From Bacteroidota bacterium (GTDB lineage Bacteria > Bacteroidota > JABWAT01), in the NCBI GenBank assembly GCA_017303995.1, contig JAFLBE010000002.1, positions 1 to 64,000 on the forward strand: a DNA stretch of 64,000 nt, in the 5' to 3' direction. Both the position numbers and the translations under genes were made by a program. Numbering within the stretch: position 1 is the first letter of the stretch; each line of letters starts with the position of its first letter. The notes under the pieces were generated by a model, which was not told the origin of the DNA, searched no databases, and worked only from the letters and a program-made list of their open reading frames with translations. Positions 22,064 to 54,278 of this stretch are shown here, in pieces.

Positions 22064-22333
22064 TTGTTTCCCCAATATTAATGAGTAAAAGACAATAAAA
22101 CCCGTTTTGTTTGCTAATGTAACTTGTTTTAAAATACCAATAACACTCAATAAAGTAAAACATTCAAACCCTTTGAGTGAAGTCATAGGGTATTTTGTTT
22201 TGACATTCGTACCAATGAAAGGAACGAATATGAAGGTAGTTAAGGTAAATAGACTAAGTTTATTTCGTATTAGAAAGGGCAATTAAAAAACGAGTTCTTT
22301 ATAATTTGTATAAATAAAATATAGCGAAAAGGG

Positions 22334-31136: not shown

Positions 31137-31151
31137 ATAGTGGAGATTCAA

Positions 31152-32453: not shown

Positions 32454-32479
32454 ACCACTACATCCAGGATACTTATTAT

Positions 32480-32501
32480 GGTTAAAAAATAATTTTTAAC
32501 C
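32480..32501. repeat. AT-rich inverted repeat between the GWxTD genes
   Basis: GGTTAAAAA (32480-32488) and TTTTTAACC (32493-32501) form a perfect 9-bp stem with a 4-base loop. It could be a weak terminator or mRNA stability hairpin; no long T run follows the stem, so its role is uncertain. Confidence 0.4.
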
Positions 32502-32578
32502 AGGGGTTTATTTAATAATATTTGATTGAAATTAAAATTATGATCAATTTTATGGCTGTTACTTTTTGAAAGATTATA

Positions 32579-36909: not shown

Positions 36910-36910
36910 T

Positions 36911-37450: not shown

Positions 37451-37461
37451 GGTTCTTGTTC

Positions 37462-38298
37462 ATGAGTAATATGGTTGTTCGGATTCTTACTGCATTAGTT
37501 TTGGGTCCGGTTGTTCTTGCAGGTATTTACCTGGGTGGCTGGTTTTTGTTGATGATCACATTGTTAATCAGTGTGGTTTCGGTTTGGGAATTTTTTATGA
37601 TGGCAAAGGTGAAATCAATTTCTCCAAATTTTGTTGCCGGTTTACTACTTTCAGTTTTGTTTCCGGTTTCATTTTTTGCAATTGATTTTCCGGTTTCGCC
37701 AGCAGGATTAGTGGTGCTTTCTGTTTTTGTAATTTCGCTGGCTGAACTTTTCAGAGATAAAGCCAATCCGGTTTTAAATATCGGATTTACTGTATTTGGA
37801 TCAGCCTACATCGGAATTGGAATTGGCAGTTTTCTGGGTATCAGGCATATGATTCCGGGTGAGGGTGCAGATACGCCACTGGCCTGGCTTTTACTCGCAG
37901 TGGTTTTCGGTATTTGGATGTGTGATTCTTTTGCCTATTTTGGCGGTAAGTTACTTGGGCGCAAAAAGTTATTCCCAAGAGTAAGTCCAAATAAAACCTG
38001 GGAAGGGGCACTTTCAGGTTTTGTAGCTTCATTGATCACAGTTTACCTTTTTAGTACGCTGACACCGATGGAAGATCTCCATCTTACTTTAACCGAAATA
38101 GTATTTTTAGGAATTATTCCAGGGCTTTTTGGTCAGCTTGGTGATTTGACAGAGTCACTATTCAAGCGTGATACCGGAGTTAAAGATTCATCACATCTCA
38201 TTCCCGGACACGGGGGTATGTTTGACCGTTTCGACAGTCTGATTTTGGTTGCCCCAATTGTGTTTAGCTATCTCAAATTTATTGTTTTCAAGGGATAA
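37462..38298 (+). CDS. cdsA: Phosphatidate cytidylyltransferase
   Basis: ATG 37462 is preferred over TTG 37456. The product is 278 residues with about seven or eight membrane spans. The CDP-diglyceride synthetase signature is complete: SLFKRDTGVKDSSHLIPGHG then GGMFDRFDS, after FGGKLLGRKKLFPRVSPNKT. The enzyme makes CDP-diacylglycerol from phosphatidic acid and CTP for phospholipid synthesis. It is followed after only 3 bases by cheW, so the chemosensory genes may be transcribed from the envelope operon. Confidence 0.95.
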   Translation: MSNMVVRILTALVLGPVVLAGIYLGGWFLLMITLLISVVSVWEFFMMAKVKSISPNFVAGLLLSVLFPVSFFAIDFPVSPAGLVVLSVFVISLAELFRDKANPVLNIGFTVFGSAYIGIGIGSFLGIRHMIPGEGADTPLAWLLLAVVFGIWMCDSFAYFGGKLLGRKKLFPRVSPNKTWEGALSGFVASLITVYLFSTLTPMEDLHLTLTEIVFLGIIPGLFGQLGDLTESLFKRDTGVKDSSHLIPGHGGMFDRFDSLILVAPIVFSYLKFIVFKG

Positions 38299-38301
38299 AA
38301 A

Positions 38302-38826
38302 ATGGCAAAAAATCAAAACCTTGATGATCTGATTTCCCGGCTAGAAGAAAAGGAAAAAGAAGCATCCATTATTTATGCGGATGAGGAAACTGAACAGGTT
38401 GTCATTTTTGAATTGGGTGGGTCACTCTTCGCTTTTCCAGGTAAACAGGTTTTTGAAATTACCACTTTTGAATCAATCACAACCGTTCCCGGTCTTCCAT
38501 CCTATTTTTCAGGTCTGATTACTCTCAGGGGTGCTGTTGAGGCCGTTGTGAATCTAAAATATCTTCTTAATCTGCCGTCCGATTCACAGATTTACGGTAC
38601 ACGGATTATATTTCTTAAGTCTGATGATCATGTTCTTGGTGGACTGGCAGACCTGGTTTTTGATGTCATTGCAATCCCAAGAAGCAATATTCATCCACCT
38701 CTTCAGACCCTTGATGAAATTAAAGCGGAGTTTGTAATTGGGGATTTTGAGTATAAGGAAAAACAAGTTGTTTTTCTAAGCATAACAAAAATATTTTCTA
38801 AAATAGCCGAACTTTCAAAGGCTTGA
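38302..38826 (+). CDS. cheW: CheW-like chemotaxis adaptor
   Basis: The product is 174 residues. A short charged N-terminal tail (about 30 residues) precedes a CheW domain: QVVIFELGGSLFAFPGKQVF, VPGLPSYFSGLITLRGAVEA and VVNLKYLL. This is the SH3-like receptor and CheA coupling fold. It opens the chemosensory cluster directly after cdsA and is followed 4 bases later by a second CheW-like gene. Confidence 0.92.
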   Translation: MAKNQNLDDLISRLEEKEKEASIIYADEETEQVVIFELGGSLFAFPGKQVFEITTFESITTVPGLPSYFSGLITLRGAVEAVVNLKYLLNLPSDSQIYGTRIIFLKSDDHVLGGLADLVFDVIAIPRSNIHPPLQTLDEIKAEFVIGDFEYKEKQVVFLSITKIFSKIAELSKA

Positions 38827-38830
38827 TTCA

Positions 38831-39271
38831 ATGAGCTATTCTTTTCTCATTTTTAGTGTTTTCAATAGCAAATTTGCTATCAGCAGTGAGCAGATTTACC
38901 GAATTGAAAGATTTGATGTAGAAAATGTTGAGTACAAAGACAGTCATCCTTCCTTTTATCGGGTTGGGGATTATGTGATTTCATTGGATTGGTTAACTGA
39001 TTCTGAAATTAATTTTGATGATCCTGCCAATTTTTCCAGACTAATCCTTTATCGGTCATCCACAAAAATCAGGGGGATTCCGGTAACCGATCTTCATAAA
39101 GTAGAGTCCTTTTATGATGTCAGTAAGATTTCAAGTGTCCCTAAATTTTTCAGGGGAAGACCTGTTTTAAACTGGGTACATGCTTTCATTACTGCCAATG
39201 GCCAGATAATTCCTATTTTAAACCTTGAGACCCTGGCATCTCTTAATTTGAGTGCTCAGGTTTCGCAATAA
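38831..39271 (+). CDS. Divergent CheW-like protein
   Basis: The product is 146 residues. YSFLIFSVFNSKFAISSEQI and the C-terminal GRPVLNWVHAFITANGQIIP, then ILNLETLA, resemble the two halves of a CheW domain. The usual G-x-hydrophobic-LRG loop seen in the first CheW is absent, replaced by a sequence around YVISLDWLTDSEINF. It may be a specialised coupling protein or a regulatory decoy. Assigned by fold-like pattern and by position between cheW and the receptor gene. Confidence 0.7.
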   Translation: MSYSFLIFSVFNSKFAISSEQIYRIERFDVENVEYKDSHPSFYRVGDYVISLDWLTDSEINFDDPANFSRLILYRSSTKIRGIPVTDLHKVESFYDVSKISSVPKFFRGRPVLNWVHAFITANGQIIPILNLETLASLNLSAQVSQ

Positions 39272-39284
39272 TGCAGGTTGAGTT

Positions 39285-41252
39285 ATGATCAGGACCAGAA
39301 GTATTCAGTTCACTCTTCTACTTACCATTTCGGTACTTACTCTCCTTTTAATTATTGCTATCTCCTATTTTGCCCATCAGGCTGCCTTGACTATCATCAA
39401 TCAGGAAGCAGATAAGCAATACTCCCAAAAAGTTGATGATTTTTCCCGTCAAACCGATACCTATCTCAAAGGTTATGAAAAACTATTAGATTTGATTTCA
39501 AATAGCCGGCACGTAAAGGAAATTTTAAAGGATCATGATATTGCGGGATATCAAGCAAGGAGTACAGATCAGACCTGGCAAGCAGTAAGGAAGGATTTAA
39601 TGCTTCCGGTATTTCAGGCAAACCGAGATGCAATTCGCCTTTTATATTTTGGCAGTGAAAAGCATGGTGAAAATTATCGCCAAAATGATACGACGTATAA
39701 AAATAAGTATGATGCAAGAATAAGAAAGTGGTATACAACTGCACGGGAGCAAAACCGTCTGACTTATACAAACTATCCGTCAGCAAACAGAAAAGGGATT
39801 GATGTAACGATATCGAATCCTATTCATGATGCTTTTGGAGAATTACTTGGTGTGGCTGGAATGGATTTGATTACTGAACAGATTTTTTCTGGTTTAAGTC
39901 AGGAATTTCTGGACTCCAGTTCTATTGCTGTCGTTTTTGATACCGTAGGTACCATTTTGTTTCATCCGGATAAATCAGTAATTCTGAAGAATCTCGATGA
40001 TTCAACTTTAAATCTCGGGTCTTCCTTCGTTTCAATGGGAAAAAATATGATTGCCGGGGGATCTGGTAAAGCATACTTTACTGATTTAACCGGAGAAGAC
40101 TATATTGCTTATTTTTCACCGGTAGGTGCAACCGGCTGGGTAACGGGAATTGCTGTTAAGACTGCTAAATTACATGAACCAACCGAATCGCTTTTAACTA
40201 AAATCATCATAGTTGATTGTATTGTTCTTATTCTGGTTTTGATCGTTTCCTGGTTTATTACCCGGCGGATGACATTTGCACTCAGGATGATCGTCGCTAA
40301 TTTAAAATCGATTGCTTTGGGGGACACTGCCCGTCACCGCCAGCTTACCTTAAGTACAAATGATGAATTTGGTGAACTTGCTCATTGGTTTAATGCATTT
40401 GCAGAAAAGTATGAATCACTTTTCGAACAACTTAGTCAGCGCGGAATTCAAATTTCTGAATTATCGGGTCAACTTAATAATTCAATTTTCCAACTAAATG
40501 CAGCAGCAATTGAGCAATCAACGGCAGTTGTTGAGACAACCAGTACCATGGAGGAAATGCATAAATCCAGCCTGAATATTTCTGAAAGTTCAGAGGGTGT
40601 TCTCAGTGCGGCCAGCCGAAATCAGTCAGCAGCAAAAGAGGGTGTTGAGCTGATGAGGGTTTTTCTGAAGAAAATGGAAGATATCGACAAATTAAATCAG
40701 GAAAAAACCCACGATATTCTTCAGATGAAAAAGAAGGTCACCCGAATACATGAAGTTATGGGATTGATTAAAGGGATCAATGAGCAAACTAAACTGATTG
40801 CATTCAACGCCTCACTAGAAGCTTCGGGTGCAGGAGAAGGTGGCAAACGATTTGCTGTAGTTGCAAATGAAATTCGCCGTCTTGCTGATACTGTCCAGGA
40901 ATCAATGGAAGAAATCAGGGCTATGACTGATGAAATTCAAACACAGACTCACTTACTAATTAAGGGAGCTGATGAAAGCAATCAGATGGTTGCCTCTGGT
41001 GTACAGGCTTCGCGTGATGTTGAAACCCACTTCAACTCAATTTATGCAGTGGCAGAAATGGTCACCCTAAATTCAAGACAGATTACACAGGCAACAACCC
41101 AGCAACGGGTTGCAAGTGAACAGATTGTTGCAACCCTTCATGATATTTCTGCAGCTATTAATCATGTCGTAAGCATGGCTTCAGATGTTTCTCACATTTC
41201 TCAGGAACTGGAAGTCATTTCAACTGATTTTAAAAAACTGGGTTCAATTTAA
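39285..41252 (+). CDS. Methyl-accepting chemotaxis protein with dCache-like sensor
   Basis: The product is 655 residues. TM1 (FTLLLTISVLTLLLIIAISY) is followed by a periplasmic domain to about residue 300 with the dCache pattern YDARIRKWYTTAREQNRLTY and LGVAGMDLITEQIF. TM2 (IIIVDCIVLILVLIVSWFIT) and a HAMP region with DEFGELAHWFNAF come next, then a signalling helix hairpin: INEQTKLIAFNASLEASGAG, then EGGKRFAVVANEIRRLADTV. The tip has Gly where most receptors have Arg (EAARAGE becomes EASGAGE). No C-terminal CheR-docking pentapeptide is seen. Ligand unknown. Confidence 0.93.
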   Translation: MIRTRSIQFTLLLTISVLTLLLIIAISYFAHQAALTIINQEADKQYSQKVDDFSRQTDTYLKGYEKLLDLISNSRHVKEILKDHDIAGYQARSTDQTWQAVRKDLMLPVFQANRDAIRLLYFGSEKHGENYRQNDTTYKNKYDARIRKWYTTAREQNRLTYTNYPSANRKGIDVTISNPIHDAFGELLGVAGMDLITEQIFSGLSQEFLDSSSIAVVFDTVGTILFHPDKSVILKNLDDSTLNLGSSFVSMGKNMIAGGSGKAYFTDLTGEDYIAYFSPVGATGWVTGIAVKTAKLHEPTESLLTKIIIVDCIVLILVLIVSWFITRRMTFALRMIVANLKSIALGDTARHRQLTLSTNDEFGELAHWFNAFAEKYESLFEQLSQRGIQISELSGQLNNSIFQLNAAAIEQSTAVVETTSTMEEMHKSSLNISESSEGVLSAASRNQSAAKEGVELMRVFLKKMEDIDKLNQEKTHDILQMKKKVTRIHEVMGLIKGINEQTKLIAFNASLEASGAGEGGKRFAVVANEIRRLADTVQESMEEIRAMTDEIQTQTHLLIKGADESNQMVASGVQASRDVETHFNSIYAVAEMVTLNSRQITQATTQQRVASEQIVATLHDISAAINHVVSMASDVSHISQELEVISTDFKKLGSI

Positions 41253-41256
41253 AATA

Positions 41257-43194
41257 ATGAAAAAATCTTTTAGCCTTAGGTATCGAATACTATTTTCTTT
41301 GGTTGGTGTCACTTCTTTGGTGATGGTGATTATATCGGTTATTACCTTCTATGTTGCCGGAAACCTTCGTCATGATTCTAATGATCGGTATTTTTCGACA
41401 CAGATCATGAATTTTTCAAACCTTTTTGAATTGGAAATTGCAAATTACCAGCATAACCTGAAATCCGTCACAGAATCAAATCAATCTGAAATCAGTGATT
41501 TCTTTGCAAACAGAGATTCAAAGGGTGATTCCGGGAAAAACCTTCAGGAGGAGATGAAATTTTTCCTTTCGGGTGATCGTGAAATTGTTACCAATTACTT
41601 TGTGGCGTTACCACAAAATGGGCTTTTTGCAGGACAGGAAAAGGTGAATCAGTCACTTTTAACCCAAATGTTAAAATCAGGTGCAAATATAAAACCTTTG
41701 GTTCTACATGATGCCCTAACCCAAAACGGACAACCCAGATTGATTTTAACAACTCCTTCAACGAACGGGAATGCTGCTTCGGAAAGAGGTTTTACCGGTT
41801 TAGTTATCAACTTTCCAAAACTAATTGAAAAACTTGAGACACTGACTGCTGATTCGGGTATTTATATTCAGTTTTTCGATCAGAATGACCATCTTATTTT
41901 TGCTTCAGATCCTGAATTCTTGCCCTTTATCGGGCAAATTGTAAAAGATGAAAATGGTCTCCCTTTTAACTTTGAGGGCGGAATTCACTCTGCGAAAAAA
42001 GGTATAACCAATATTGATAATTGGAATAACCGGTCTTTGTATGTTGTTTCTATCGAAAACACACCATTTAGAATCCTATTTTCCATACCAGATGCTGACC
42101 TGAAGGCTTCTGTTACTGAAATCAGTAATCTTCTGATTGTTTTTAACGTGATCTTATTTATTACCTTGATTTTTTTAGCCTGGTACAATTCATCCAAGGT
42201 CATTCGCCCTGTTACACATCTTACCCGACTGATCAGGGACACATCTGCCGGAACACTGAAATTATCTGATCTGGTTGATAAAAAGCAGGATGCCGAGTTT
42301 CAGGAGCTTGGGATGGCTTTCAGAGATTTTATCTTGTCATCAACTTCAGTAGTAGATGGAATCAAGCAAAACGGAATTGAACTGAGCGGAATGACCGAAG
42401 ACATCAATGGTACGTTGTCTAAGTTTTCTGAATCGGCTTCAACTTTATCCGCTGCGGTGGCTCAAACAACATCAGCAATGGAAGAAATGGCCGCTTCCAG
42501 CAGGAATATTTCGGCAACAACAGGTTCAGTCGTAGCCATCGCCCGTCAAAGTCAAACCCGGGCTCTTGACGGTTTAGAAGAGTTTAAAGCTTTTCTGAAA
42601 AAAATGGAAGAAATCAGGGCTAAAAATGATAACCGTTCACATGATATCGTTTCACTGGGGAAAAAAGCAGCCAGAATAACTGAGATCATGACAATTATTA
42701 ACCATATTAATGAACAGACAAAACTGATAGCCTTTAATGCTGCACTCGAAGCCTCCGGTGCCGGTGAAGCCGGAAAAAGATTTTCGGTTGTTGCAAATGA
42801 AATCAGACGCCTTGCAGAAAATGTGCAGGAATCGACAGAAGAAATTAAAATGATGATCAGTGAAATCCAGCAATCAACCGGAGAGTTGATGAAGGGAACT
42901 GCTGAAGCAAATTCTTCTATTCAAACCGGCGTTAATCAGGTAAAAGAAATTGTGAATTCAATGAACCTGTTTGTTGATGAAGCCAAAAATACAACTGAAT
43001 CTGCCCAGCAAATCAGTTATTCAACACAGCAACAATTAAGTGCCGCTGAAGAAATTGTGACAACATTACATGATATTTCACTTACAGCCTCTCAGTTTGC
43101 AGAAATGAGTACTGATCTTGCAAATACAGCTGAAAGGTTAAATTCGATGTCAGTTCAACTTGTCGAAATGAGCATAGTAAGTGTCCATAAATAA
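41257..43194 (+). CDS. Methyl-accepting chemotaxis protein (second receptor)
   Basis: ATG 41257 is chosen; an in-frame ATG at 41185 lies inside the previous gene. The product is 645 residues. TM1 (ILFSLVGVTSLVMVIISVIT) precedes a periplasmic region of roughly 260 residues that I do not recognise; TM2 is LLIVFNVILFITLIFLAWYN. The cytoplasmic part has a short HAMP-like linker and a signalling domain with INEQTKLIAFNAALEASGAG, then EAGKRFSVVANEIRRLAENV. As in its neighbour, the tip Arg is Gly. It starts 5 bases after the first receptor gene. Confidence 0.93.
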   Translation: MKKSFSLRYRILFSLVGVTSLVMVIISVITFYVAGNLRHDSNDRYFSTQIMNFSNLFELEIANYQHNLKSVTESNQSEISDFFANRDSKGDSGKNLQEEMKFFLSGDREIVTNYFVALPQNGLFAGQEKVNQSLLTQMLKSGANIKPLVLHDALTQNGQPRLILTTPSTNGNAASERGFTGLVINFPKLIEKLETLTADSGIYIQFFDQNDHLIFASDPEFLPFIGQIVKDENGLPFNFEGGIHSAKKGITNIDNWNNRSLYVVSIENTPFRILFSIPDADLKASVTEISNLLIVFNVILFITLIFLAWYNSSKVIRPVTHLTRLIRDTSAGTLKLSDLVDKKQDAEFQELGMAFRDFILSSTSVVDGIKQNGIELSGMTEDINGTLSKFSESASTLSAAVAQTTSAMEEMAASSRNISATTGSVVAIARQSQTRALDGLEEFKAFLKKMEEIRAKNDNRSHDIVSLGKKAARITEIMTIINHINEQTKLIAFNAALEASGAGEAGKRFSVVANEIRRLAENVQESTEEIKMMISEIQQSTGELMKGTAEANSSIQTGVNQVKEIVNSMNLFVDEAKNTTESAQQISYSTQQQLSAAEEIVTTLHDISLTASQFAEMSTDLANTAERLNSMSVQLVEMSIVSVHK

Positions 43195-43215
43195 AAAAGA
43201 AACCGGAAAACCTGA

Positions 43216-44259
43216 ATGCCAGTGAAAAAAGTCAGAGTTCTGATTGTGGATGATTCCCCGACAGTCAGAGATATTTTCAGGGCAATCTTTGAATCTGATC
43301 CAGATGTGGAAGTGATTGGTGAAGCAGCAAATGGACAGGAAGCAATTGACTTTGTAGTCAAAGATCGTCCCAGCATCATTACGATGGATGTTTTCATGCC
43401 CAAAATGAATGGTCCGGATGCCATTCAGCATATTATGGGCAATGCTGCAACTCCGATTTTGGTGGTTACCACTGCAAAAGATGCAACACTGGCTTTTCAA
43501 TGCCTGAGCAAAGGCGCTCTTGAAGTTATTGAAAAACCTGATTTTGCCTATATTCAGGATGAAAATAAACGAAAAGGTTTGATTACAAAGCTAAAATCAC
43601 TGTCAACGGTTCCGGTTGTTACTCATATGGCCGGGAAAACAAAAACGGTCAGAGAACCTGTAAAGGCTGATTTCAGCAATAAACGAATTGTTGCAATTTG
43701 TTCAAGTACCGGCGGTCCGAAGGCACTTTCAATTTTACTTGGACAAATGCCGGCTGACTTTCCTTATCCGATAGTGATAACACAGCACATGTTTGAAGGC
43801 TTTATTGACGGACTTGTTGAATGGCTACAGACAACCACAACTCTAAAAGTAAAAGTTGCTGAGCACGGAGAGGTATTATTGAAGGGTGTTGTTTATGTTG
43901 CCCCGACCGGAAAACACCTTGAAGTTTCAATAGCTGAAACCGTTAAACTTACCAATGAAGGTTTGGTTGAAGGCCACCGGCCATCCGGTGAAAAATTATT
44001 TGCATCAGTCGCTTCTGTTTACGGAAGAAAGGCAATTGGCGTCATTCTTACCGGGATGGGTGGCGATGGCTCAACATCACTCGGACTTATAAAAAATGCT
44101 GGCGGTTTAACCATTGCCCAGGATGAAAAAACTTGCGTTGTTTTTGGAATGCCAAGGGAAGCAATTGCAAAAGGAAATGCCAATATGGTTTTGCCTTTGA
44201 CTGATATTGCTCCGGCGATAATTAAACACCTTTCTCATACTATTGTGGCAAAGGTTTAA
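43216..44259 (+). CDS. cheB: Chemotaxis protein-glutamate methylesterase CheB
   Basis: The product is 347 residues. An N-terminal receiver (RVLIVDDSPTVRDIF; phospho-acceptor Asp in IITMDVFMPKMNG) is joined to a C-terminal methylesterase domain with catalytic Ser in CSSTGGPKALS, His in VITQHMFEGF and Asp in GVILTGMGGDGSTS. It demethylates or deamidates receptors when phosphorylated. It lies 2 bases before cheR, the opposing enzyme, which supports an adapting signalling system. Confidence 0.95.
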   Translation: MPVKKVRVLIVDDSPTVRDIFRAIFESDPDVEVIGEAANGQEAIDFVVKDRPSIITMDVFMPKMNGPDAIQHIMGNAATPILVVTTAKDATLAFQCLSKGALEVIEKPDFAYIQDENKRKGLITKLKSLSTVPVVTHMAGKTKTVREPVKADFSNKRIVAICSSTGGPKALSILLGQMPADFPYPIVITQHMFEGFIDGLVEWLQTTTTLKVKVAEHGEVLLKGVVYVAPTGKHLEVSIAETVKLTNEGLVEGHRPSGEKLFASVASVYGRKAIGVILTGMGGDGSTSLGLIKNAGGLTIAQDEKTCVVFGMPREAIAKGNANMVLPLTDIAPAIIKHLSHTIVAKV

Positions 44260-44261
44260 AC

Positions 44262-45812
44262 GTGTCATCAACCTCTGTCCAGATTCAGAAATTTGCTTCT
44301 ACTATAACTGAACGTTATGGCATTGTGGTTACCCGTGAACAACGTGAGTCACTTTCAAGATATGTAGCAGAGCGAATGACCTATCTTGGGTATCAGTATT
44401 TTGATGACTATTATTCCTGGCTTCAGTTCAAAGCGAATGAAATTGAATGGGAACAGTACATCAGTCTGATCACAAATAACGAAACATATTTTTTCAGAGA
44501 ACCCAACCATTTCAGGGTATTAGATACTCTTATTTTTGACGAGTTGATGAGAACCGTTCCTGCCGACCGGAAAATCAGAATCTGGAGTTGTGGTTGTTCA
44601 TCTGGTGAAGAACCTTACTCGATTGCCACTTTGATAAAAGATAAATATGGTCTGGCGGTTCTTCAAAAAAGGTTTGAAGTGATTGCAAGTGACCTTGATC
44701 AGAAAATTCTTGCATCTGCCAGAAATGCTGAATACGGGAAAAATTCTTTCAGGGTGAAAGAACACGCCTATATTCTTTCCAATTTTACAGAGACACAAAA
44801 TTCACGCTGGAAATTAAATGAAGATCTGGCGGGCGCGGTTAAGTTTTTCAGGTTTAATGTTTGTGAAGACCCTGATAAAATCGAAAACCTGGCCGAACCG
44901 GTTGATCTGATCTTTTTTAGAAATGTTTCTATTTATTTCACAGCGGAAACCTTAAAGAAGGTACAACATTCGCTCCAAAGCCGGCTTAATCTGAACGGAT
45001 ACCTTTTTGTTGCCAGTTGCGAAACCATGCTTCATGATCTGGGTCAGTTGAGATTGATGGATCAGGGTGGGGCATTCCTGTTTAAAAAATCATTAGCTGC
45101 AGTGGCAGCTGAACCGTTTAAATTGAATACAAAACCCTCTGCGGTCAAAAAAGAGGATTTTCAACAACCAAAAATTGAAAGTTATGAAACCCTGCTTCAG
45201 AGAATCAGAGGTTTGATTGATGACAGAAAACCAGCACATTCAGAAAAACGGGCAGTCAATGATGCAATTGATGTTGTCAATCAGGCAATCAGTCAGAATC
45301 AGGATCAAATAACCAATTTAGCGCTACTACGTTTGCAGGAAGATCTGTTTGAAGAATCAGTCAGGCTGATCGCGCATAAAAAGGATAAATCCTTTAAAGA
45401 TCTTTCAGTTGAAGCTTATTCTCTGATGTCTCTCAGCCGGTTTGGTGAAGCTGAAACGCCTATTGAAAAAATGAAAAAAATGGAAGAGTTCAATCCGGTT
45501 GGATATTTATTTGATGGACTGAATTTTAAACTACAGGGTCGGTTTGATCAGGCTGTCGTTTCATTCAGACGGTGTATTTATCTGGATTTGAGTTTTTCTA
45601 CACCCCATTTTCACCTTGGAAATATCTATCAACAAACCAAAAAATGGTCGCTGGCAAAGAGTGAATATGAACTGACTTTGAAATTGATTGATAAAAACCG
45701 TAAGCAGCTGATTGAATTTAATAAACCGGATGTTTCAATTGATTACATCCAGTATGCTTGCCAGAAAATACTGAAGAATTATAACCAGGAAATGAATGAG
45801 AAGGTGAACTGA
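44262..45812 (+). CDS. cheR: Chemotaxis methyltransferase CheR with TPR-like C-terminus
   Basis: GTG start at 44262. The product is 516 residues. The CheR domain occupies about residues 1-275: NNETYFFREPNHFRVLDTLI and the SAM-binding RIWSCGCSSGEEPYSIATL. The usual CRNV-hydrophobic-IYF motif reads FRNVSIYF. After a linker, residues of about 370-510 form TPR-like helices (VGYLFDGLNFKLQGRFDQAV, FSTPHFHLGNIYQQTKKWSL). CheR-TPR fusions occur in non-flagellar chemosensory systems. The stop overlaps the following Hpt gene by one base. Confidence 0.93.
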   Translation: MSSTSVQIQKFASTITERYGIVVTREQRESLSRYVAERMTYLGYQYFDDYYSWLQFKANEIEWEQYISLITNNETYFFREPNHFRVLDTLIFDELMRTVPADRKIRIWSCGCSSGEEPYSIATLIKDKYGLAVLQKRFEVIASDLDQKILASARNAEYGKNSFRVKEHAYILSNFTETQNSRWKLNEDLAGAVKFFRFNVCEDPDKIENLAEPVDLIFFRNVSIYFTAETLKKVQHSLQSRLNLNGYLFVASCETMLHDLGQLRLMDQGGAFLFKKSLAAVAAEPFKLNTKPSAVKKEDFQQPKIESYETLLQRIRGLIDDRKPAHSEKRAVNDAIDVVNQAISQNQDQITNLALLRLQEDLFEESVRLIAHKKDKSFKDLSVEAYSLMSLSRFGEAETPIEKMKKMEEFNPVGYLFDGLNFKLQGRFDQAVVSFRRCIYLDLSFSTPHFHLGNIYQQTKKWSLAKSEYELTLKLIDKNRKQLIEFNKPDVSIDYIQYACQKILKNYNQEMNEKVN

Positions 45813-46189
45813 TGCAACTGAATCAGGCCATGTTCATTGATAAATTTTGCAATGAAGCAACACAGGTTAAAGAGAAAATTGAAGGTGCCCTGGGTGCTCT
45901 CAATGAAAACCCAGAAAATAATGATGAAATTTTAGTGATTAAAAGAGCTTCTCATAGTCTGAAAGGACTAAGTTTAATGCTGAAATTCACCGCAGTTGGG
46001 CAACTTATGGCGGCAGCTGAACAGGTCAGCGAAAAATTTGCAAATGGTGGAAGGGGAGCAGACCCTGATTACTTGTATCTTTTGATGGAAGTCTTAACTG
46101 CACTTGATGAATCAATTGATAAAATTAAATCCGGCGAAGGCAATAGTCTGAACTGGGATGAACTCACAGAAAAGTTGAAACAACTCTGA
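45812..46189 (+). CDS. Stand-alone Hpt phosphotransfer protein
   Basis: The product is 125 residues. The histidine phosphotransfer motif is in KRASHSLKGLSLMLKFTAVG with the likely phospho-acceptor His48. It fits a four-helix Hpt domain with no other domain. It starts on the last base of cheR and is followed 10 bases later by cheA, whose N-terminus contains three similar domains. It may shuttle phosphate between the CheA receiver and the downstream output regulators, which is inference. Confidence 0.88.
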   Translation: MQLNQAMFIDKFCNEATQVKEKIEGALGALNENPENNDEILVIKRASHSLKGLSLMLKFTAVGQLMAAAEQVSEKFANGGRGADPDYLYLLMEVLTALDESIDKIKSGEGNSLNWDELTEKLKQL

Positions 46190-46199
46190 GGCCGGCTAC

Positions 46200-49100
46200 A
46201 TGGCAGGACTAGATACCTCAAAATTTGCCCAGAGGTTCAGTGCAGAAAGCAGGGAAAAAGTTTCCGGCATTTACGCACAACTTCAGGCTGGTCCGTTGGG
46301 TGACTACCCGGATGCACTCGATCAGATCCGGAAAAATGTTCATTCACTGAACGGTGTGGCAAACATGCTTAAATTTTCCACGATTGGTCAGTTGGCTGCC
46401 GAAATGGAGTCCATTCTGAAATCAATGGTGGATAAAAAGACTGAAACCTATCCGTGGGTAAACCAGCTTGTTGAAAAATTTGCCGGCATAATTACCAGCG
46501 AAATCCAACGTATTGAAGCTGACCCTAAGGCTGAACAATACCGACATACTTTTCTGGATACTTTAAAGCAAGTATCCGGCGGTGGAATTTACACACCTGA
46601 ATTGGTCCAGACCAAAGAATCGAAACAAGAAGATCTTCGGTTTACCAAAGAACGGTTCCTGAAAAAATTTATTACAGAAGCTGAAGGATATGTAACCGAA
46701 TTAACTTCAATTTTGGGTAGTCTGTACACACCGGAAGATCTTGAAACCCGCCAGACTGATTTAAAAAATGTAGTTCACGCTTTTAAGGGTTCGTCACGTT
46801 TGCTTGGGTTCAATGATCTCTTTACCAATCTTGAACGCCTTGAAGATTTTTTCAATGATAATATTAAACTGGGAAGGATTCTTCCCGAACAGTTTAAAAC
46901 TGATTTTAAGGAAGTCACTAACAAGCTTACAGTCGCTCTGAACCGGATTTCAGGTGGAGAGATGGAAAACACTTCTGATCCTGGTTTGCAGGAAAGTGTT
47001 AACCGTATTCTTGGCGTTGAGACAAAAGCAGTTATTCCGGTTAGGGTTGAAAAACCTGCAATTGTGGTTTCAACCCCAGCACCCGAAATAAAAATTGAAA
47101 AACCAAAACCAGCCGCTGAACCTTCTGCTCCTGCGCCAGGGCCGAAGAAGTTTGACCGATCCATTTTTGTTGCCAAGTTTGTTGATGAATCACTTGAAAA
47201 TAATGACCTTCTTGCAGATAACCTGCTGAATCTTGAAAAAAATCTGACGGATATGAACCTTGTAAAAGAATGTATGAGGTTGGCTCACGTTCTAAAAGGT
47301 TCCGCCAGAATGATAGGTTTTAAATATCAGGGTGGCGTTCTTCACAAGATTGAAGATTTATTGAATGTCTTTGTTACCGGTGCAGTAAAAGTTACTGAAT
47401 ATCATGCAGAATTGTTGATTGTTACCGTTGACCATTTGAAGGAAAACCTGCTGAATATTAAAAGAGAGCAAGCAGAACTACCTGTGAACCAGTTAATTCT
47501 GGATGCTCTCGATAATGCGGTCGCCCAAAAACCGTTCACAATTCCTCAGGTTGAAAAGCCTTCAGAAACACCCAAAGTCAAAGCTGCAGAACCAGAAAAC
47601 CGACGCGAGGAACCAGCGCCCTCTTCCAGATCCTTCAATATGGAATCTGAGACCAGGGAAAAAGATGATGCTTCAAATGAAAATATTAATGTAAGAAAGT
47701 TTGGCGACACCATCCGGGTTAATACTGCCAAGCTTGATGAAACCATTAAACTTGTGGGCGAGCTGCTGATTAACAGACAACGTTCCCAGATTCGTCTTAC
47801 CGAACTTCAGCATTTACGAAAAATGATGAAGGGCTTTGTTTACCAAATGACCTCACTGGTCCAGAATTCAGAAGATGAGCAAACCCGTGATATTCTCAGG
47901 CAATCAGAAAGGTTACTTTCGATGCTTGAAGGTCAGGCTCACCGTCAGCGTGAGGATATGGCTTTTCAGGATTTGATTATCAATGACCTGCAGACCAATA
48001 CGATTAAAATGCGTATGGAACCGTTAAGTGTGATATTTAATGCGTTCCCGAGAGCCATTCGTGATATTTCAAGAAGTTTGAACAAACAAGTTGAACTTGT
48101 CATCCAGGGTGAAGAAACTGAACTCGATCGTAAAATGATTGAAAAGCTAACTGACCCGCTCATTCATCTGGTTCGTAATGCCATTGATCATGGAATTGAA
48201 TCTACTGAAGAACGTCAACGCCTTGAAAAACCGCTTCGTGGCTTACTCAGAATACGGGCAATGACTGAAGGCAGTAACATTGTTCTGATTGTTCAGGATG
48301 ATGGAAAAGGAATTGATGTTGAAAGCATCAAGGCAAAAGCCCTCCAAAAGAAATTATTCGAAAGTCAGGAAGAAATTGACGCTTTGAATGAAATTGAAGT
48401 GATGAAGCTGATCTTTTTACCCAATTTTTCAACTGCAAAATTAATTACTGATTTGTCGGGCCGCGGTGTCGGGCTTGATATCGTTAAGAAAAACATTGAG
48501 GATCTTAAAGGTTTTATTTCGGTGGATTCAATTCCAGGAAAAGGCACCACCTTTACAATAAAACTTCCTTTGACGCTGACAACTCTTCGTTCTTTGGTTT
48601 GCATGGCTGGGGGACAAAAATGGGCGATTCCAATCAGTTCAATTAAAAGAACGCTCGTCATTAGAAAAAATGAAGTCATTGAAGTTGTTGACAGGGATGC
48701 AATCCGGCTCGATAACCAGATTATTCCCCTCGTCCGTCTTTCTAGAACACTTGGGATAAATGACATTAACGAATACCCCGATAAACTGATGGTTCTTGTA
48801 GGTTATTTCGGCAAGGAACAGATTGCTTTTGTCGTCGAAGATATTTTCGAAGAAACCGAAATAGTGATTAAACCTGTTCCGGCTTTGATCAGAAAGATCA
48901 GGAATGTAAGTTCCGTCACTGTCTCTCTGAATGGCGAAATCATTCCGATTCTGTTCATGCCCGAACTTATTAATAGTGCTAAATTGGTTCAGGAAGGGTT
49001 AAAAGAACCGGTTATTATTTCTAAGGGAAAAGAAAACGTTCACACCGTTCTTGTTGTCGATGATTCTCTGAATACCCGTGAAATTGAAAAAACAATTCTT

Positions 49101-49403
49101 GAAGCCTACGGTTATAAAGTTGAGACTGGCCGGGATGGTCTTGACGGATTCGAAAAAGCCATGGAAGGGAATTACGACATTATTGTAAGTGATCTGGAAA
49201 TGCCCCGGTTAAACGGATTTGGTTTTATTGAAAAACTCAGACAACAAGAAAAATATAAGCATACACCTGTAATCATTGTTACCAGCCGTGAAAATGAAAA
49301 TGATAAACGACGGGGCATTGAAGTAGGTGCTAATGCATACATAATCAAAGGTTCATTCGATCAGACAAGCCTGATTGACACAATTGAAAGTCTTTTAGCT
49401 TAG
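46200..49403 (+). CDS. cheA: Hybrid CheA histidine kinase with three Hpt domains and a receiver
   Basis: The product is 1067 residues. Three Hpt domains have His48 (VHSLNGVANML; the usual Lys is Asn), His193 (VVHAFKGSSRLLGF) and His363 (LAHVLKGSARMIGF), joined by Pro/Ala/Lys-rich linkers. Then come the dimerisation helices (INVRKFGDTIRVNTAKLDET), the ATPase (LVRNAIDHGIE, DDGKGID, GRGVGLDIVKKNIE), a CheW-like domain and a C-terminal receiver with Asp998 in IIVSDLEMPRLNGF. This resembles hybrid CheA proteins of type IV pilus and gliding systems (ChpA, FrzE). No separate CheY-only gene lies nearby. Confidence 0.95.
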   Translation: MAGLDTSKFAQRFSAESREKVSGIYAQLQAGPLGDYPDALDQIRKNVHSLNGVANMLKFSTIGQLAAEMESILKSMVDKKTETYPWVNQLVEKFAGIITSEIQRIEADPKAEQYRHTFLDTLKQVSGGGIYTPELVQTKESKQEDLRFTKERFLKKFITEAEGYVTELTSILGSLYTPEDLETRQTDLKNVVHAFKGSSRLLGFNDLFTNLERLEDFFNDNIKLGRILPEQFKTDFKEVTNKLTVALNRISGGEMENTSDPGLQESVNRILGVETKAVIPVRVEKPAIVVSTPAPEIKIEKPKPAAEPSAPAPGPKKFDRSIFVAKFVDESLENNDLLADNLLNLEKNLTDMNLVKECMRLAHVLKGSARMIGFKYQGGVLHKIEDLLNVFVTGAVKVTEYHAELLIVTVDHLKENLLNIKREQAELPVNQLILDALDNAVAQKPFTIPQVEKPSETPKVKAAEPENRREEPAPSSRSFNMESETREKDDASNENINVRKFGDTIRVNTAKLDETIKLVGELLINRQRSQIRLTELQHLRKMMKGFVYQMTSLVQNSEDEQTRDILRQSERLLSMLEGQAHRQREDMAFQDLIINDLQTNTIKMRMEPLSVIFNAFPRAIRDISRSLNKQVELVIQGEETELDRKMIEKLTDPLIHLVRNAIDHGIESTEERQRLEKPLRGLLRIRAMTEGSNIVLIVQDDGKGIDVESIKAKALQKKLFESQEEIDALNEIEVMKLIFLPNFSTAKLITDLSGRGVGLDIVKKNIEDLKGFISVDSIPGKGTTFTIKLPLTLTTLRSLVCMAGGQKWAIPISSIKRTLVIRKNEVIEVVDRDAIRLDNQIIPLVRLSRTLGINDINEYPDKLMVLVGYFGKEQIAFVVEDIFEETEIVIKPVPALIRKIRNVSSVTVSLNGEIIPILFMPELINSAKLVQEGLKEPVIISKGKENVHTVLVVDDSLNTREIEKTILEAYGYKVETGRDGLDGFEKAMEGNYDIIVSDLEMPRLNGFGFIEKLRQQEKYKHTPVIIVTSRENENDKRRGIEVGANAYIIKGSFDQTSLIDTIESLLA

Positions 49404-49414
49404 TGGAGGCTAAC

Positions 49415-50584
49415 GTGGATTTACGGTCATTTTTACGCTGGGGAAATAAATACGGGGCATTTAATGTGTCGTCACTTATTTATTTTGGTCTGTTTTTCAT
49501 ATTTGTGGCAATTCTTGTAATAGGGGTTTTCCTGATAGCTGGTGTGGGAATCATCAGCATCTTCTTCACTCTTTTAATGGGTGTTTTTTCAGCGTGGGCA
49601 ATGAACGTTTTTTATAAACGGATCACTGGCATGGTGCAGGAAATTTTTGAAGAATTTAAAAACAATGACACTGCAAGAATCCAAATCTCAGGAACCAATG
49701 AGATGGGGCAGGTGATTAAAGTTGTGAATGAATTGCTTGAACGAAATGCAGATCTGAAAAACCAATTGGTCATGGCCAACGGGAAAATTAATAAACTTGT
49801 TGATGCACTGAGTGAACAGTTGAGAGATAATGCAGAGGTTTCGGCAACGCAAAGTAGTTCAATTGCAGAAACAACAGCAACAATAAAAGAACTTGCTACC
49901 TCGGCAGAAAAAATTGTACAAGAAACTTCAACTGTGGTTGGTCTGGCAGAGGCAACTCAGGCTTCTGCTCAAAAGGGAACACTTGCAATTGCAAATATGC
50001 TTGAGCGAATGAGTGAAATTCAAAATGAGAATCAGAGACGTATACATGAAATCGTAATCCTTGGCCGCAAGGCTCAGGAAATTGAAAAAGTTATGGATAT
50101 CATCAATGATATTGCTTCAAATACAAAGATCATTGCATTTAATGCCGGTATTGAAGCTGCATCATCAGGTGAAGAAGGTAAACGGTTTGGAACAGTCGCC
50201 TCTGAAATTCGTAAATTGGCCAATACAGTTGCCAATTCGACCAATGAAATCAGAGACAAAATCAAAGAAATTCAGAAAACAACCAACGAGCTGGTCATCG
50301 TTTCTGAAGAAGAAACCAAGAAAATTCAAAGCGGGGTTGATACTGCCCAAACCATGGTGAAGGAACTCACCGAAATTCTTGATAAGGCAGATAAAACCCT
50401 GGATTGGGTGAAGCAGATTTCGCTTGCAACCCAGCAGCAGCTCACAGCAAGTGAACAGGTTGCAATTGTACTTCACGATATTTCTGATGGTGTGAAACGG
50501 TTCACCCAGGCCATCAATCAGTCTAAAGAAACTTCAGAAGAGTTAAAAGATTTGTCCAGAAGCCTTAAGGGTATGGTGAAATAA
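49415..50584 (+). CDS. Membrane-anchored receptor without a periplasmic domain
   Basis: GTG 49415 is favoured because GGAGG stands 5 bases upstream; a GTG at 49403 overlaps that site. The product is about 389 residues. A tight hairpin of two membrane segments (SLIYFGLFFIFVAILVIGVF and IISIFFTLLMGVFSAWAMNV) is followed by a HAMP-like stretch and an MCP signalling domain with IASNTKIIAFNAGIEAASSG, then EEGKRFGTVASEIRKLANTV. There is no external sensor, so it may sense an internal or membrane signal. Its tip residue is Ser where Arg is usual. Confidence 0.9.
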   Translation: MDLRSFLRWGNKYGAFNVSSLIYFGLFFIFVAILVIGVFLIAGVGIISIFFTLLMGVFSAWAMNVFYKRITGMVQEIFEEFKNNDTARIQISGTNEMGQVIKVVNELLERNADLKNQLVMANGKINKLVDALSEQLRDNAEVSATQSSSIAETTATIKELATSAEKIVQETSTVVGLAEATQASAQKGTLAIANMLERMSEIQNENQRRIHEIVILGRKAQEIEKVMDIINDIASNTKIIAFNAGIEAASSGEEGKRFGTVASEIRKLANTVANSTNEIRDKIKEIQKTTNELVIVSEEETKKIQSGVDTAQTMVKELTEILDKADKTLDWVKQISLATQQQLTASEQVAIVLHDISDGVKRFTQAINQSKETSEELKDLSRSLKGMVK

Positions 50585-50649
50585 ACCGTGAACTCCAGTT
50601 TTCACCCAATTAATAACTTCGTTATGATTTGTATCAGGAGAATAGTCAT

Positions 50650-51768
50650 TTGCTGTTGAAACCAGTAAAAGCGCCATCCAGAAAAACTGTGGTAGCCAGA
50701 GAGCGCCCGCTGATTTTGATTGCTGATGATAGTCCGACCGTGCTGGACATCCTGAAGTTTATTCTTGAAACAAATGGGATGGATACCTTAACAGCAACAA
50801 ATGGTGTCGAAGCCGTTCAGAAAATGTACAAGGAAATACCCGATCTGGTAATTCTTGATCTTGAAATGCCAAAAATGAGCGGGTATCAGGTTTGCCGGTT
50901 ACTTAAATCTGACCCCACAGTGTCTTATGTTCCGATCATTATTTTGACTTCAAAATCGTACAAACAGAATAAATTCTGGGGACTTTATTCTGGCGCTGAT
51001 GATTACTTGACCAAAGATTTTGAAATTGACCAGCTGGTTAACAGAGTTAAATTCCACTACAATAACCGTGGAAAATTGGTTGACATCAAACCCGCCATTC
51101 CGAAAACAATCAATGAGGAAGAAATCATTGAAAATGTGAATGAAGCGCTTGATCAAAAATTATTTGAAACAACCATCATTTTTGAAATTGCGCAAGTAGC
51201 CCTCAGTGCCGGAAATCTGGAAGAAAAAGTTGGTAAAGTTCTCACATTAATGAACCGGGTGTGCGAATTTACTGTTGCAAGTATATTCGTTGTTGAGATG
51301 GGACAGGGACGGCTATTTCTTGAAAACCCGGGAATGGCAAGTGAGTCTTATATTTTTAGCCATGTTGAAACTGCCATTTTGGAATCTCAGAATCATGATA
51401 TGAAGTTTGATACACAAAAAGTGATGATTAATCAATGGGAAACCGGAAAAGACCGGGGTGCGCAGTTTAATCACATCCAGTCAAATGTTTCTTTTCCTCT
51501 TAAAATCAGAGGAATTACTCAGGGTTTAGTCACTTACACACACTTTTCCTCCGGCATGTTTCCTGATATAGTTTATCATTTGCTGAAACGGGCTTCCGAT
51601 CAGATTTCAATTCTTATTGATGAAGCCATTTTGTTTAATGAATACAGTAAAATGAGAAGTGATCTTTTAAGTCATGCAACAAAAGTCTTTTCAGAAGTCA
51701 TGGCAAACGGCCGGGAAATTGAAAAGCAGTTAAATAAGAAAATGAAAACGAATTCTCCGTGGATTTAA
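50650..51768 (+). CDS. Response regulator, receiver plus GAF-like domain
   Basis: A TTG at 50650 has CAGGAG 9 bases upstream; a TTG at 50629 would precede that site, so I prefer 50650. The product is about 372 residues. The receiver has LILIADDSPTVLDILKF, phospho-acceptor Asp70 in LVILDLEMPKMSGYQ and Lys in YLTKDFE. A helical linker (IIENVNEALDQKLFETTIIF) leads into a GAF-like domain over about residues 180-350 (TVASIFVVEMGQGRLFLENP). No DNA-binding or enzyme domain is seen. It shares its plan with the next gene. Confidence 0.88.
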   Translation: MLLKPVKAPSRKTVVARERPLILIADDSPTVLDILKFILETNGMDTLTATNGVEAVQKMYKEIPDLVILDLEMPKMSGYQVCRLLKSDPTVSYVPIIILTSKSYKQNKFWGLYSGADDYLTKDFEIDQLVNRVKFHYNNRGKLVDIKPAIPKTINEEEIIENVNEALDQKLFETTIIFEIAQVALSAGNLEEKVGKVLTLMNRVCEFTVASIFVVEMGQGRLFLENPGMASESYIFSHVETAILESQNHDMKFDTQKVMINQWETGKDRGAQFNHIQSNVSFPLKIRGITQGLVTYTHFSSGMFPDIVYHLLKRASDQISILIDEAILFNEYSKMRSDLLSHATKVFSEVMANGREIEKQLNKKMKTNSPWI

Positions 51769-51780
51769 GGAACCTGATTA

Positions 51781-53952
51781 ATGGCTAGAGATATACCGAA
51801 AATATTGATTGCGGATGACAGCCCTACAATCGTTGACATCATGAAGTTTATGCTTGAAGCCAGCGGTTATGAAGTTGTTACTGCTACAAATGGTCTTGAA
51901 GCGGTTATTGCTGCCTTTAGGGAAGATCCTGATTTGGTTCTTCTTGATGTCGAAATGCCAAAAATGAATGGGTATCAGGTTTGCCGGTATCTCAAAGAAG
52001 ACCGTCACCTGAAACAAACTCCTATCATCATCCTTACTTCGCACGCACAGAAAAAAATGCGTTTCCTGGGTGTTTACACCGGGGCAGATGAATATTTGAT
52101 CAAAGATGATGATCATGAACAACTTCTAAACCGGATTGAATATTACATCAACCGGAAAAAATCAGGTTCAGGGAACCTCAGGGAAGCACGTTCTGTAACT
52201 GTTTCTGAAGTTGCCGTAATGGAAACCGTTAACGGAATTTTGGATAAAAAGCTGATAGAATCAACAATCATTAACCAGGTTGGACGTTTGGCAGCGAACC
52301 TTGACCGGTTTGATCTGGTGATTAATTCAATTTTCGGTTTGATTGAAAAAATGGAGGAATTTGATTTCTCTGCCATTCTTGTAAGAGAACTTGGCGGCGC
52401 CCAACTGTACATTCAAACCCAGCGCTCGATTCCGCCCGAACTGGTTGAAAAATTTCAGGCAAAAGTACTTCAGAGTGCGCTCCATTATGATGTGATCATG
52501 GATTCTTCCAAGGTTGCCACCAAACTTATTCCCCGTACTGAAAAAGGTGAATTTCAGTTGGGAGATAAACGTGTTGCTGCAGCTAAGGAAGGTAACCTCA
52601 AGTTTCAGGATAACGTTCTGAGAAGCAGACAGGAACCTGTAGGTATTCTCGCAATCGGGAATTTTTCTGAAGAGCCGATTCACAACGATATCGTTGAAAC
52701 CATTTCGATTTTATCTAATCACGTTGCCATGCTGCTCGATAATTGGCTGATCTGGAAACGGTATAACGATGTAAATCAAACTCTGAATGTCAGGTTGCTT
52801 GAACTGAATGTAGAAATTCTACATGAACTTCAGTCATTTGCAACCAATCTGACCAAATGTAAAAATCTTGATGAACTCACACAGACCATCATCCGCCAGG
52901 TTCCACGAATAATCAGATGCCAGAAAATAAGCCTTATTATCCGCAGAAAAGTGGGCAATGATTATAAAATGGAATCTTTCGGACGTTGGGGAGAAGAATC
53001 TTCAAGTCTGATCTTTGATATTCTTGTTGAATGGTTGATTAATGAGCAACTCAATAAGATTACCAATCAATCAATTATTAACGATTTAAGCAAGGTCAAG
53101 TTTTTCAAAGATCACAACCTGGATAAAAACCTTTGCCAGAACATTTTAACGGTTCCGCTTTTTATCGGTGATGAAAAAATCGGATTGATCAGCTTGTTTG
53201 ACCGCCTGGAAATTCAGCAATTCAGTCAGCAGGATCTTGAAATTCTGAGATTCATTTCGGGAATGGTGGCTTTGAGCTTAAAGGGAATCGTGGAACAGGA
53301 ATATCATGCACCTGATAGCATCATGACCAATATCTATAAACGGTTTATGCCTGATGAACTTGCAACTACGCTGATTCTAAACCCGGAATTGCTCGAAATG
53401 GATGGTTCAGTGCGCCATACAACGGTATTATTTCTTGGGATTGATGATGTTGAGGGAATTCTTGAACACACAGATACCAAACGAGTTGTTCAGTTTTTTA
53501 ATGAGTTTTTGAATGTGATGACAACTCAATCATTTAATTTTGTTGGAGTTGTTGAAAAGTATAAAGAATACGGTTTGAAATGTGTTTTCGGAATTCCATT
53601 TGAACAAAAGGATGATGCTGAAAGAGCCATTCAATGTGCAATCCACATGCAGAAGGAATTTGCAGCCTTAAGAATGGCCTATAAGGATCTACCACTCGAA
53701 AATTCAGGTTTGAAAATCCTGATCCATTCAGGAAATATCAGTTTTGCCTATATGGGTTACGAACACCTGAGTGATTTTATTTCTTTCGGGAAGGATGTTA
53801 ACTTTGGAAGTCAGCTATCTGAAAAACTGGTTGAACAGGGAATTTTCATTTCAGACCGTACCATTCTGGAAATTGAACATCCATATGGTTTAAATCCGGT
53901 TGATTATTTAGGTGAGACTGATTTTCAGATTTATCAACTAGCTGAAAATTAA
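51781..53952 (+). CDS. Response regulator with GAF domains and degenerate class III cyclase domain
   Basis: The product is 723 residues. The receiver (KILIADDSPTIVDIMKF; Asp56 in LVLLDVEMPKMNGYQ; Lys in YLIKDDD) is followed by two GAF-like regions (about 150-320 and 350-510). A C-terminal domain from about residue 540 aligns with adenylate/guanylate cyclases: TTVLFLGIDDVEGI, VVEKYKEYGLKCVFGIP and ILIHSGNISFAYMGYEH, then GKDVNFGSQL. Both metal-binding Asp are replaced (FADI becomes FLGI; GDA becomes EYG) and the late Arg is Gln. So it is probably a non-catalytic receptor or partner domain. Last gene of the chemosensory cluster. Confidence 0.88.
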   Translation: MARDIPKILIADDSPTIVDIMKFMLEASGYEVVTATNGLEAVIAAFREDPDLVLLDVEMPKMNGYQVCRYLKEDRHLKQTPIIILTSHAQKKMRFLGVYTGADEYLIKDDDHEQLLNRIEYYINRKKSGSGNLREARSVTVSEVAVMETVNGILDKKLIESTIINQVGRLAANLDRFDLVINSIFGLIEKMEEFDFSAILVRELGGAQLYIQTQRSIPPELVEKFQAKVLQSALHYDVIMDSSKVATKLIPRTEKGEFQLGDKRVAAAKEGNLKFQDNVLRSRQEPVGILAIGNFSEEPIHNDIVETISILSNHVAMLLDNWLIWKRYNDVNQTLNVRLLELNVEILHELQSFATNLTKCKNLDELTQTIIRQVPRIIRCQKISLIIRRKVGNDYKMESFGRWGEESSSLIFDILVEWLINEQLNKITNQSIINDLSKVKFFKDHNLDKNLCQNILTVPLFIGDEKIGLISLFDRLEIQQFSQQDLEILRFISGMVALSLKGIVEQEYHAPDSIMTNIYKRFMPDELATTLILNPELLEMDGSVRHTTVLFLGIDDVEGILEHTDTKRVVQFFNEFLNVMTTQSFNFVGVVEKYKEYGLKCVFGIPFEQKDDAERAIQCAIHMQKEFAALRMAYKDLPLENSGLKILIHSGNISFAYMGYEHLSDFISFGKDVNFGSQLSEKLVEQGIFISDRTILEIEHPYGLNPVDYLGETDFQIYQLAEN

Positions 53953-54278
53953 CTCATTTTCTCGCTTGCATTAAGAACGGTTTCAGCCGTGATTTTATAA
54001 TGTGAGGCATGCCAGACAGGTTTTCCCATATGAAAGAAAATCACCTGGGGTGACTGGTGTGTAATTTTAAACTGCTCAGCAATGGCCAAACTTACAGGTC
54101 GGCTAGCAATTACATCAATAAGTATGATTTCAGGGCATTTTCCTGATTCTTCTGCCTTCTCCAATTCTTCAAGTGCATTGGCACTTATGCCACACTGGTA
54201 AGAATGTTTGAATAAAACCCAGGTATCTCCCGATTCATTTTTATCTGTAACAGTCTTTAGTTCAGTAAGTTTTTTCAT
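53949..54278 (-). CDS. ytxJ: YtxJ-family bacilliredoxin (bacillithiol-linked thiol protein)
   Basis: The product is 109 residues with a thioredoxin-like fold. The family motif is VLFKHSYQCGISANALEELE with a single active Cys, then KITHQSPQVIFFHMGKPVWH, where the cis-Pro follows QS. YtxJ proteins are monothiol bacilliredoxins that reduce bacillithiol-mixed disulfides. No bacillithiol synthesis gene lies in the window. Its stop codon overlaps the stop of the cyclase-like gene on the other strand, so the two transcripts converge. Confidence 0.85.
   Translation of the reverse strand: MKKLTELKTVTDKNESGDTWVLFKHSYQCGISANALEELEKAEESGKCPEIILIDVIASRPVSLAIAEQFKITHQSPQVIFFHMGKPVWHASHYKITAETVLNASEKMS

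Follow-up and report, generated by a model that had tools for sequence, protein, structure and literature searches.

An ACF-like chemosensory operon of Bacteroidota with a receiver–GAF pair and a putative pseudocyclase

Introduction

Chemosensory pathways of the 'alternative cellular functions' (ACF) class, a non-motor class, are marked by CheR-TPR methyltransferases and multidomain response regulators (PMC3447774). In ACF/Wsp systems of Pseudomonas and in CheR-TPR clusters these marks accompany a hybrid CheA-REC without P2, a CheB and two CheW proteins; the outputs carry GGDEF or histidine kinase domains, and a mononucleotidyl cyclase is already among the reported regulator domains (PMC3447774). 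A CheA with several Hpt domains and a REC is mostly confined to the ACF and Tfp classes (PMC10782961). Cluster 2 of Halomonas, for which an alternative function has been proposed as likely (PMC5907407), strings together CheB, CheR-TPR and CheA-REC, has an MCP and a CheW of its own, and ends in a REC-GGDEF diguanylate cyclase and a small receiver protein. Closer by phylum are 11 Bacteroidota clusters (L130-L140), laid out as CheW, CheR-TPR, CheW, MCP, CheA-REC, CheB, RR, most of whose outputs look like REC-histidine kinases (a REC, then a stretch that matches the ATPase region of CheA).

The operon described here lies in a 64,000-nucleotide stretch (the window), which is contig 40 in a genome (G000) of 4.31 Mb and 98% completeness. 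It shares the hybrid CheA-REC without P2, the CheR-TPR, the CheB, the two CheW-like proteins and the multidomain response regulators with the ACF/Wsp systems, but its gene order is different, it has three receptors and a free Hpt, and in place of GGDEF or histidine kinase outputs it has a REC-GAF pair (RG1 and RG2), one of which ends in a class III cyclase domain that appears inactive. Since REC-cyclase outputs have been reported for CheR-TPR clusters, the kind of system is known and such an output is not new; the variant lies in the class-restricted RG1/RG2 pair and its predicted inactive cyclase.

Results

An eleven-gene operon shared by the class

Eleven co-directional plus-strand genes occupy 38302-53952, from CheW1 to RG2 in the order of Table 1, with intergenic gaps of -1 to 44 bp. 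The original prediction had counted twelve consecutive genes; its content, order and coordinates stand, and only the number changes. Looked for in relatives, the set recurs: each of the class's four genomes (G000-G003, two genera) has the same 11 genes, identically ordered, so the cluster is not a chance assembly. A scan of genome contigs gave matches in two members of the same class only, and a scan of viral contigs found no relative of the system. A phage or plasmid origin was rejected on account of the chromosomal neighbours (a ribosomal operon and cytochrome-oxidase genes) and the lack of a shift in composition.

Table 1. Features of the operon and its upstream neighbour (window coordinates)
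Feature	Coordinates	Strand	Evidence
CdsA (phosphatidate cytidylyltransferase)	37456..38298	+	PF01148 E 8e-63; 3 bp before CheW1
CheW1, coupling protein	38302..38826	+	PF01584 E 1.4e-23; starts 3 bp after cdsA
CheW2, divergent CheW-like protein	38831..39271	+	PF01584 E 0.01, under cut-off
MCP1, dCache receptor with HAMP and 40H-like signalling hairpin	39285..41252	+	PF02743 E 1e-16, PF00015 E 9e-25
MCP2, receptor with unassigned periplasmic sensor	41257..43194	+	PF00015 E 1e-30
CheB, REC-methylesterase	43216..44259	+	PF01339 E 1.5e-61 and PF00072
CheR-TPR methyltransferase	44262..45812	+	PF01739 E 2e-41 and weak TPR matches
Lone Hpt phosphotransfer protein	45812..46189	+	PF01627 E 2e-9
CheA hybrid: three Hpt, dimerisation, ATPase, CheW domain, REC	46200..49403	+	Pfam, alignment, tree
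MCP3, transmembrane-hairpin receptor, 40H-like	49403..50584	+	PF00015 E 6e-32
RG1, REC and divergent GAF-like domain	50650..51768	+	PF00072 E 2e-27
RG2, REC / GAF-like / GAF / putative class III cyclase pseudoenzyme	51781..53952	+	Pfam, PF01590/PF13185, PF00211
RG2 cyclase-like domain, residues ~540-697	53398..53871	+	PF00211, phmmer to PDB, catalytic-residue table

The operon sits next to cdsA across a short gap in 4/4 class genomes, and cdsA is probably co-transcribed with the chemosensory genes. In the window (35998-38302), cheW1 follows a run of three genes, for a CAAX protease, a DUF2007 zinc-ribbon protein and CdsA, each 1-5 bp from the next gene; this order and its short spacing are likewise found in all four genomes, and the operon probably extends upstream past CheW1 to include these three genes. 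Downstream, at 53949-54278, a BrxC-like bacilliredoxin is encoded on the other strand; the end of this gene and the RG2 stop overlap by 4 bp. Promoter-like sites in the DNA were at chance level and terminator-like sites slightly above it. Further upstream, at 31140-33847, the window carries an adjacent pair of GWxTD-domain proteins.

Receptors, coupling proteins and adaptation enzymes

Pfam matches support the three receptors, CheB, CheR-TPR, lone Hpt and hybrid CheA that the original prediction had named. Of its two CheW-like proteins, the first is a clear match (70-94% identity to the orthologues in G001-G003), whereas the second, 52-82% identical in relatives, reaches only 15.9 bits against the Pfam cut-off of 23.5 bits.

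Transmembrane segments flank the sensor of MCP1 at both ends. Between the two genera, MCP2 identity drops to 34%, which we attribute to a fast-evolving sensor. MCP3 has a single hydrophobic block at residues 18-69, that is, a membrane hairpin without a periplasmic sensor. The N-terminal arm of its signalling hairpin is 14 residues longer than that of Tsr, a shift common to MCP1, MCP2 and MCP3 in the Pfam match, and which by the usual heptad rule we take to place the receptors in class 40H. From HAMP to tip, MCP3 is nearly colinear with a Pseudomonas receptor (PDB 6s18). CheB exceeds the NCBIfam CheB cut-offs; the TPR repeats of the CheR each fall below the Pfam cut-off, but several TPR models agree on them.

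The CheA groups with ACF-type kinases

The lone Hpt (78-97% identity) keeps an SHSLKG phospho-site motif in 4/4 orthologues, and the three Hpt histidines of the CheA (His48, His193 and His363) are invariant in an alignment of the class proteins (68-91% identity). Class assignment used a tree of 36 CheA kinase cores rather than curated class profiles; in it the four window-type CheAs cluster with that of Halomonas cluster 2 (support 96/92), which is a long branch, and next with the Bacteroidota CheR-TPR/RR-HK clusters (support 95/94). Among CheA cores from beyond the class, the Halomonas protein (L141) is the nearest one found; a single Hpt was detected in it, and its cluster has CheB, CheR-TPR and CheA-REC in the same succession as the operon. 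Classic Wsp CheAs fall on a separate branch (L145 in the tree, L143 by similarity), which places the operon in ACF in the broad sense and not in Wsp.

Together with the tree, the hybrid multi-Hpt CheA-REC, the CheR-TPR, the multidomain response regulators and the absence of a flagellar output identify the operon, as judged from its sequence, as an ACF chemosensory pathway in this broad sense. The Bacteroidota clusters L130-L140 share this class by CheA tree and components; a cyclase-like domain was found in 0/11 of them. The Tfp class (Pil-Chp, ChpA) also has a multi-Hpt CheA with a C-terminal REC, a trait that ACF shares (PMC10782961), but the operon lacks pilus genes and PilG/PilH-type single receivers, its CheR carries TPR and its regulators are multidomain. 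The original prediction had put the cluster forward as a candidate for an undescribed system, a claim to be given up if it fell cleanly in a known class whose motor output is established. The published hallmarks (PMC3447774, PMC10782961) and the CheA tree do give a known class, and do not support the claim of an undescribed system; a motor output is not part of it, ACF being non-motor.

Motors and other chemosensory sets lie elsewhere in the genome

No CheY-only, flagellar or pilus gene had been predicted in the cluster, and within it this holds: there is no single-domain REC gene in 38302-53952, and no pilus genes adjoin the operon. Elsewhere in the genome a stand-alone receiver lies beside a CheW and an MCP (L036). 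FlhA is absent from all four class genomes and was found in 4/4 controls, so there is no flagellum.

A pathway that steers surface motility through RG1 and RG2, whether gliding linked to type IX secretion or a pilus, in the manner of Frz or Pil-Chp, seems improbable to us. SprA occurs in 4/4 class genomes, so these bacteria have type IX secretion and possibly glide, and each genome has one secretin and one GspE/PilB-type ATPase, both outside the operon; a multi-Hpt CheA-REC is, moreover, typical of the Tfp class too (PMC10782961). But SprA serves secretion without gliding as well, no second, PilT-type ATPase was found in the class genomes, and the operon itself holds no motility gene. Its CheA also stands apart from the giant multi-Hpt CheA of the same genome, whose cluster has GTPase- and Roadblock-like neighbours (a grouping of the two was rejected, AU p 0.003). 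Nothing was found that links the operon to the secretin, ATPase or SprA systems. The GldL model had no match in the class genomes, nor in the controls.

Type IX secretion tails (Por_Secre_tail) that fit SprA occur in the window on a subtilase and a second large protein (18206-22282 and 26523-30026). The second chemosensory system is split over L035 (G000:C61, 7843-16777) and L039 (G000:C53) and joined in L080 (G002:C23); it comprises an MCP, CheR, lone Hpt, giant CheA (>1,700 aa), CheB, two CheW and a receiver protein, and ends in proteins resembling, by eye, a Roadblock protein and an MglA-type GTPase. A third set (L036; G000:C106, 7190-15600) has an MCP, a CheW and a single-domain REC with no CheA alongside, together with a 374-aa protein ending in a REC and a short one that by eye resembles a pilin. 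G001 has an extra cluster (L081; G001:C24, 3702-12400) with CheB, MCP, a CheY-like REC, CheW, CheR, receivers and a short, very divergent CheA.

RG1 and RG2 are related receivers restricted to the class

RG1 starts at a TTG (50650) behind AGGAG, within a longest open reading frame that begins at 50629. RG1 and RG2 are about as conserved among class orthologues as CheA (78-97% and 71-94% identity, with 79-98% for RG1 in a second comparison), and the phospho-site Asp, Thr and Lys are invariant in both RECs. They are related, as predicted: 35% identity over 338 residues makes RG1 a homologue of the N-terminal half of RG2. Their description as two receiver-GAF proteins needs qualifying. The receivers are clear; the signal for a GAF domain in RG1 is weak (the window copy has no Pfam match, and one orthologue matches GAF_2 at E 0.0064), and RG2 is more than a receiver-GAF protein, adding a C-terminal cyclase domain. 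Outside its REC, RG1 matches RG2 of the class genomes and elsewhere gives two weak partial matches among 390 other genomes of the phylum; the complete RG2 architecture was found in class members only, and in other genomes just its cyclase domain is matched. AlphaFold models of RG2 and RG1, built from four-row alignments, have a mean pLDDT of 38 and 37, respectively, too low to be of use.

The RG2 cyclase domain has lost its catalytic residues

Residues 546-696 of RG2 match PF00211 (E 2.2e-6; 27.8 bits, cut-off 21.9 bits), and phmmer matches to PDB entries 6fht, 2w01, 3r5g and 1wc1 (E down to 8e-16) give as its relatives the class III cyclases CyaB1, CyaC and CyaB. The original prediction overlooked this domain. 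RG2 resembles the GAF-linked cyclases CyaB1 of Nostoc and CyaC of Spirulina (2w01, 6fht, 1wc1) in fold and in its position after GAF/REC, but lacks their metal-binding and transition-state residues. The Me-a Asp is replaced by Gly (G000, G002) or Thr (G001) and kept only in G003; the Me-b Asp is lost in 4/4 (Tyr in G000 and G002, Thr in G001, His in G003), as is the transition-state Arg (Gln in G000, G002 and G001, Leu in G003); and the transition-state Asn persists in G000 and G002, with His in G001 and Thr in G003. All four residues are kept in another class III cyclase of the same genome (L050) and in 13/15 other cyclases, mis-read minus-strand rows (L048, L087, L089, L091, L094, L098) being left out of the comparison. 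The two exceptions, L051 (G003:C13) and L052 (G001:C11), form a small family of proteins 355-359 aa long whose class III cyclase domain is degenerate: the Me-a Asp is replaced by Arg or His, the Asn by Thr and the Arg by Gln.

On these residues we infer that the RG2 domain is catalytically dead. Were RG2 instead an active adenylate/guanylate cyclase, the pathway would set the level of a cyclic nucleotide, as REC-cyclase regulators elsewhere may. The class III fold is clear, CheR-TPR clusters are reported to have such regulators (PMC3447774), and the Lys of the base-binding position (Lys593) is invariant; set against a Me-b Asp and an Arg lost in all four orthologues, a Me-a Asp lost in three and an Asn lost in two, these leave activity very unlikely. 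A metal-free role as half of a heterodimer is hardly possible because the Arg that such a half supplies is gone, and we rejected RG2 as a counterpart of the mammalian C2 half on this ground. The original prediction had offered gliding, surface attachment or a second-messenger response as what the system may control. With the sole messenger-making domain dead by its residues, the last becomes the least likely of the three.

The domain appears to be maintained

The cyclase domain is less conserved among orthologues than the RG2 REC (45-85% against 92-98% identity). Between G000 and G002 its dN/dS is 0.046, compared with 0.020 for the REC, 0.014 and 0.015 for the GAF domains and 0.061 for Hpt1 of CheA; with dS near saturation these values are rough, and there are four orthologues in all. 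The rate for the domain is roughly threefold that of REC and GAF, yet no higher than that of Hpt1 of CheA. The faster rate, and replacements that differ between lineages, would suit a decaying relic, with the REC-GAF parts of RG1 and RG2 alone mattering. Decay sits poorly, however, with a frame that is open and full length in 4/4 genomes of two genera, with a dN/dS of ~0.05, as low as that of the Hpt domain, and with an invariant C-terminal motif, EHPYGLNP; we regard it as unlikely, if the least so of the alternatives considered. The low dN/dS, the intact frame in four species and the invariant motif make the domain look like a maintained pseudoenzyme, kept for a non-catalytic role.

Discussion

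We favour, at a probability of roughly 60%, an ACF pathway that acts through phosphorylation-gated binding, with RG1 and RG2 as outputs and RG2 as a pseudocyclase that makes no messenger. That the two proteins are the likely outputs of a non-flagellar chemosensory system is the part of the original prediction that we retain as likely. Judged by sequence, the receptors, kinase, adaptation enzymes and phosphorylatable receivers appear intact. The three receptors (dCache, periplasmic sensor and membrane hairpin) would signal through the two CheW proteins to CheA, with adaptation set by CheB and CheR-TPR. The three Hpt domains of CheA would pass phosphate to RG1 and RG2, both cytosolic receivers, while the lone Hpt and the REC of CheA itself may help or buffer the transfer; operon linkage points to this phosphotransfer from CheA or the free Hpt to both proteins. 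Phosphorylation, with any GAF ligand, would change the shape or dimer state of RG2 without a cyclic nucleotide being made, and its retained cyclase fold may offer a binding or scaffold surface. RG1 would act as a partner, competitor or phosphate sink of RG2; both this pairing and the binding role of the pseudocyclase we infer.

The link to cdsA hints weakly at an envelope process. A more specific version of phosphorylation-gated binding is offered only tentatively: RG2 would read CheA phosphate on its REC and a small ligand on its GAF domain or pseudocyclase, partner binding would then act on an envelope process, and RG1 would be the antagonist.

A search of the literature on pseudocyclases as response-regulator outputs found nothing relevant. 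If this more specific version is true, the RG2 pseudoenzyme would be the dedicated output of a chemosensory array, messenger-free and non-motor, and we found no such output described for any chemosensory class. The outputs of ACF pathways are mostly known from domain lists only, and a conserved dead cyclase at the end of such a pathway would mean that an output cannot be read off the name of its domain. RG2 is prone to mis-annotation as an 'adenylate/guanylate cyclase'; it may instead provide a testable case of a pathway that acts by binding and not by chemistry.
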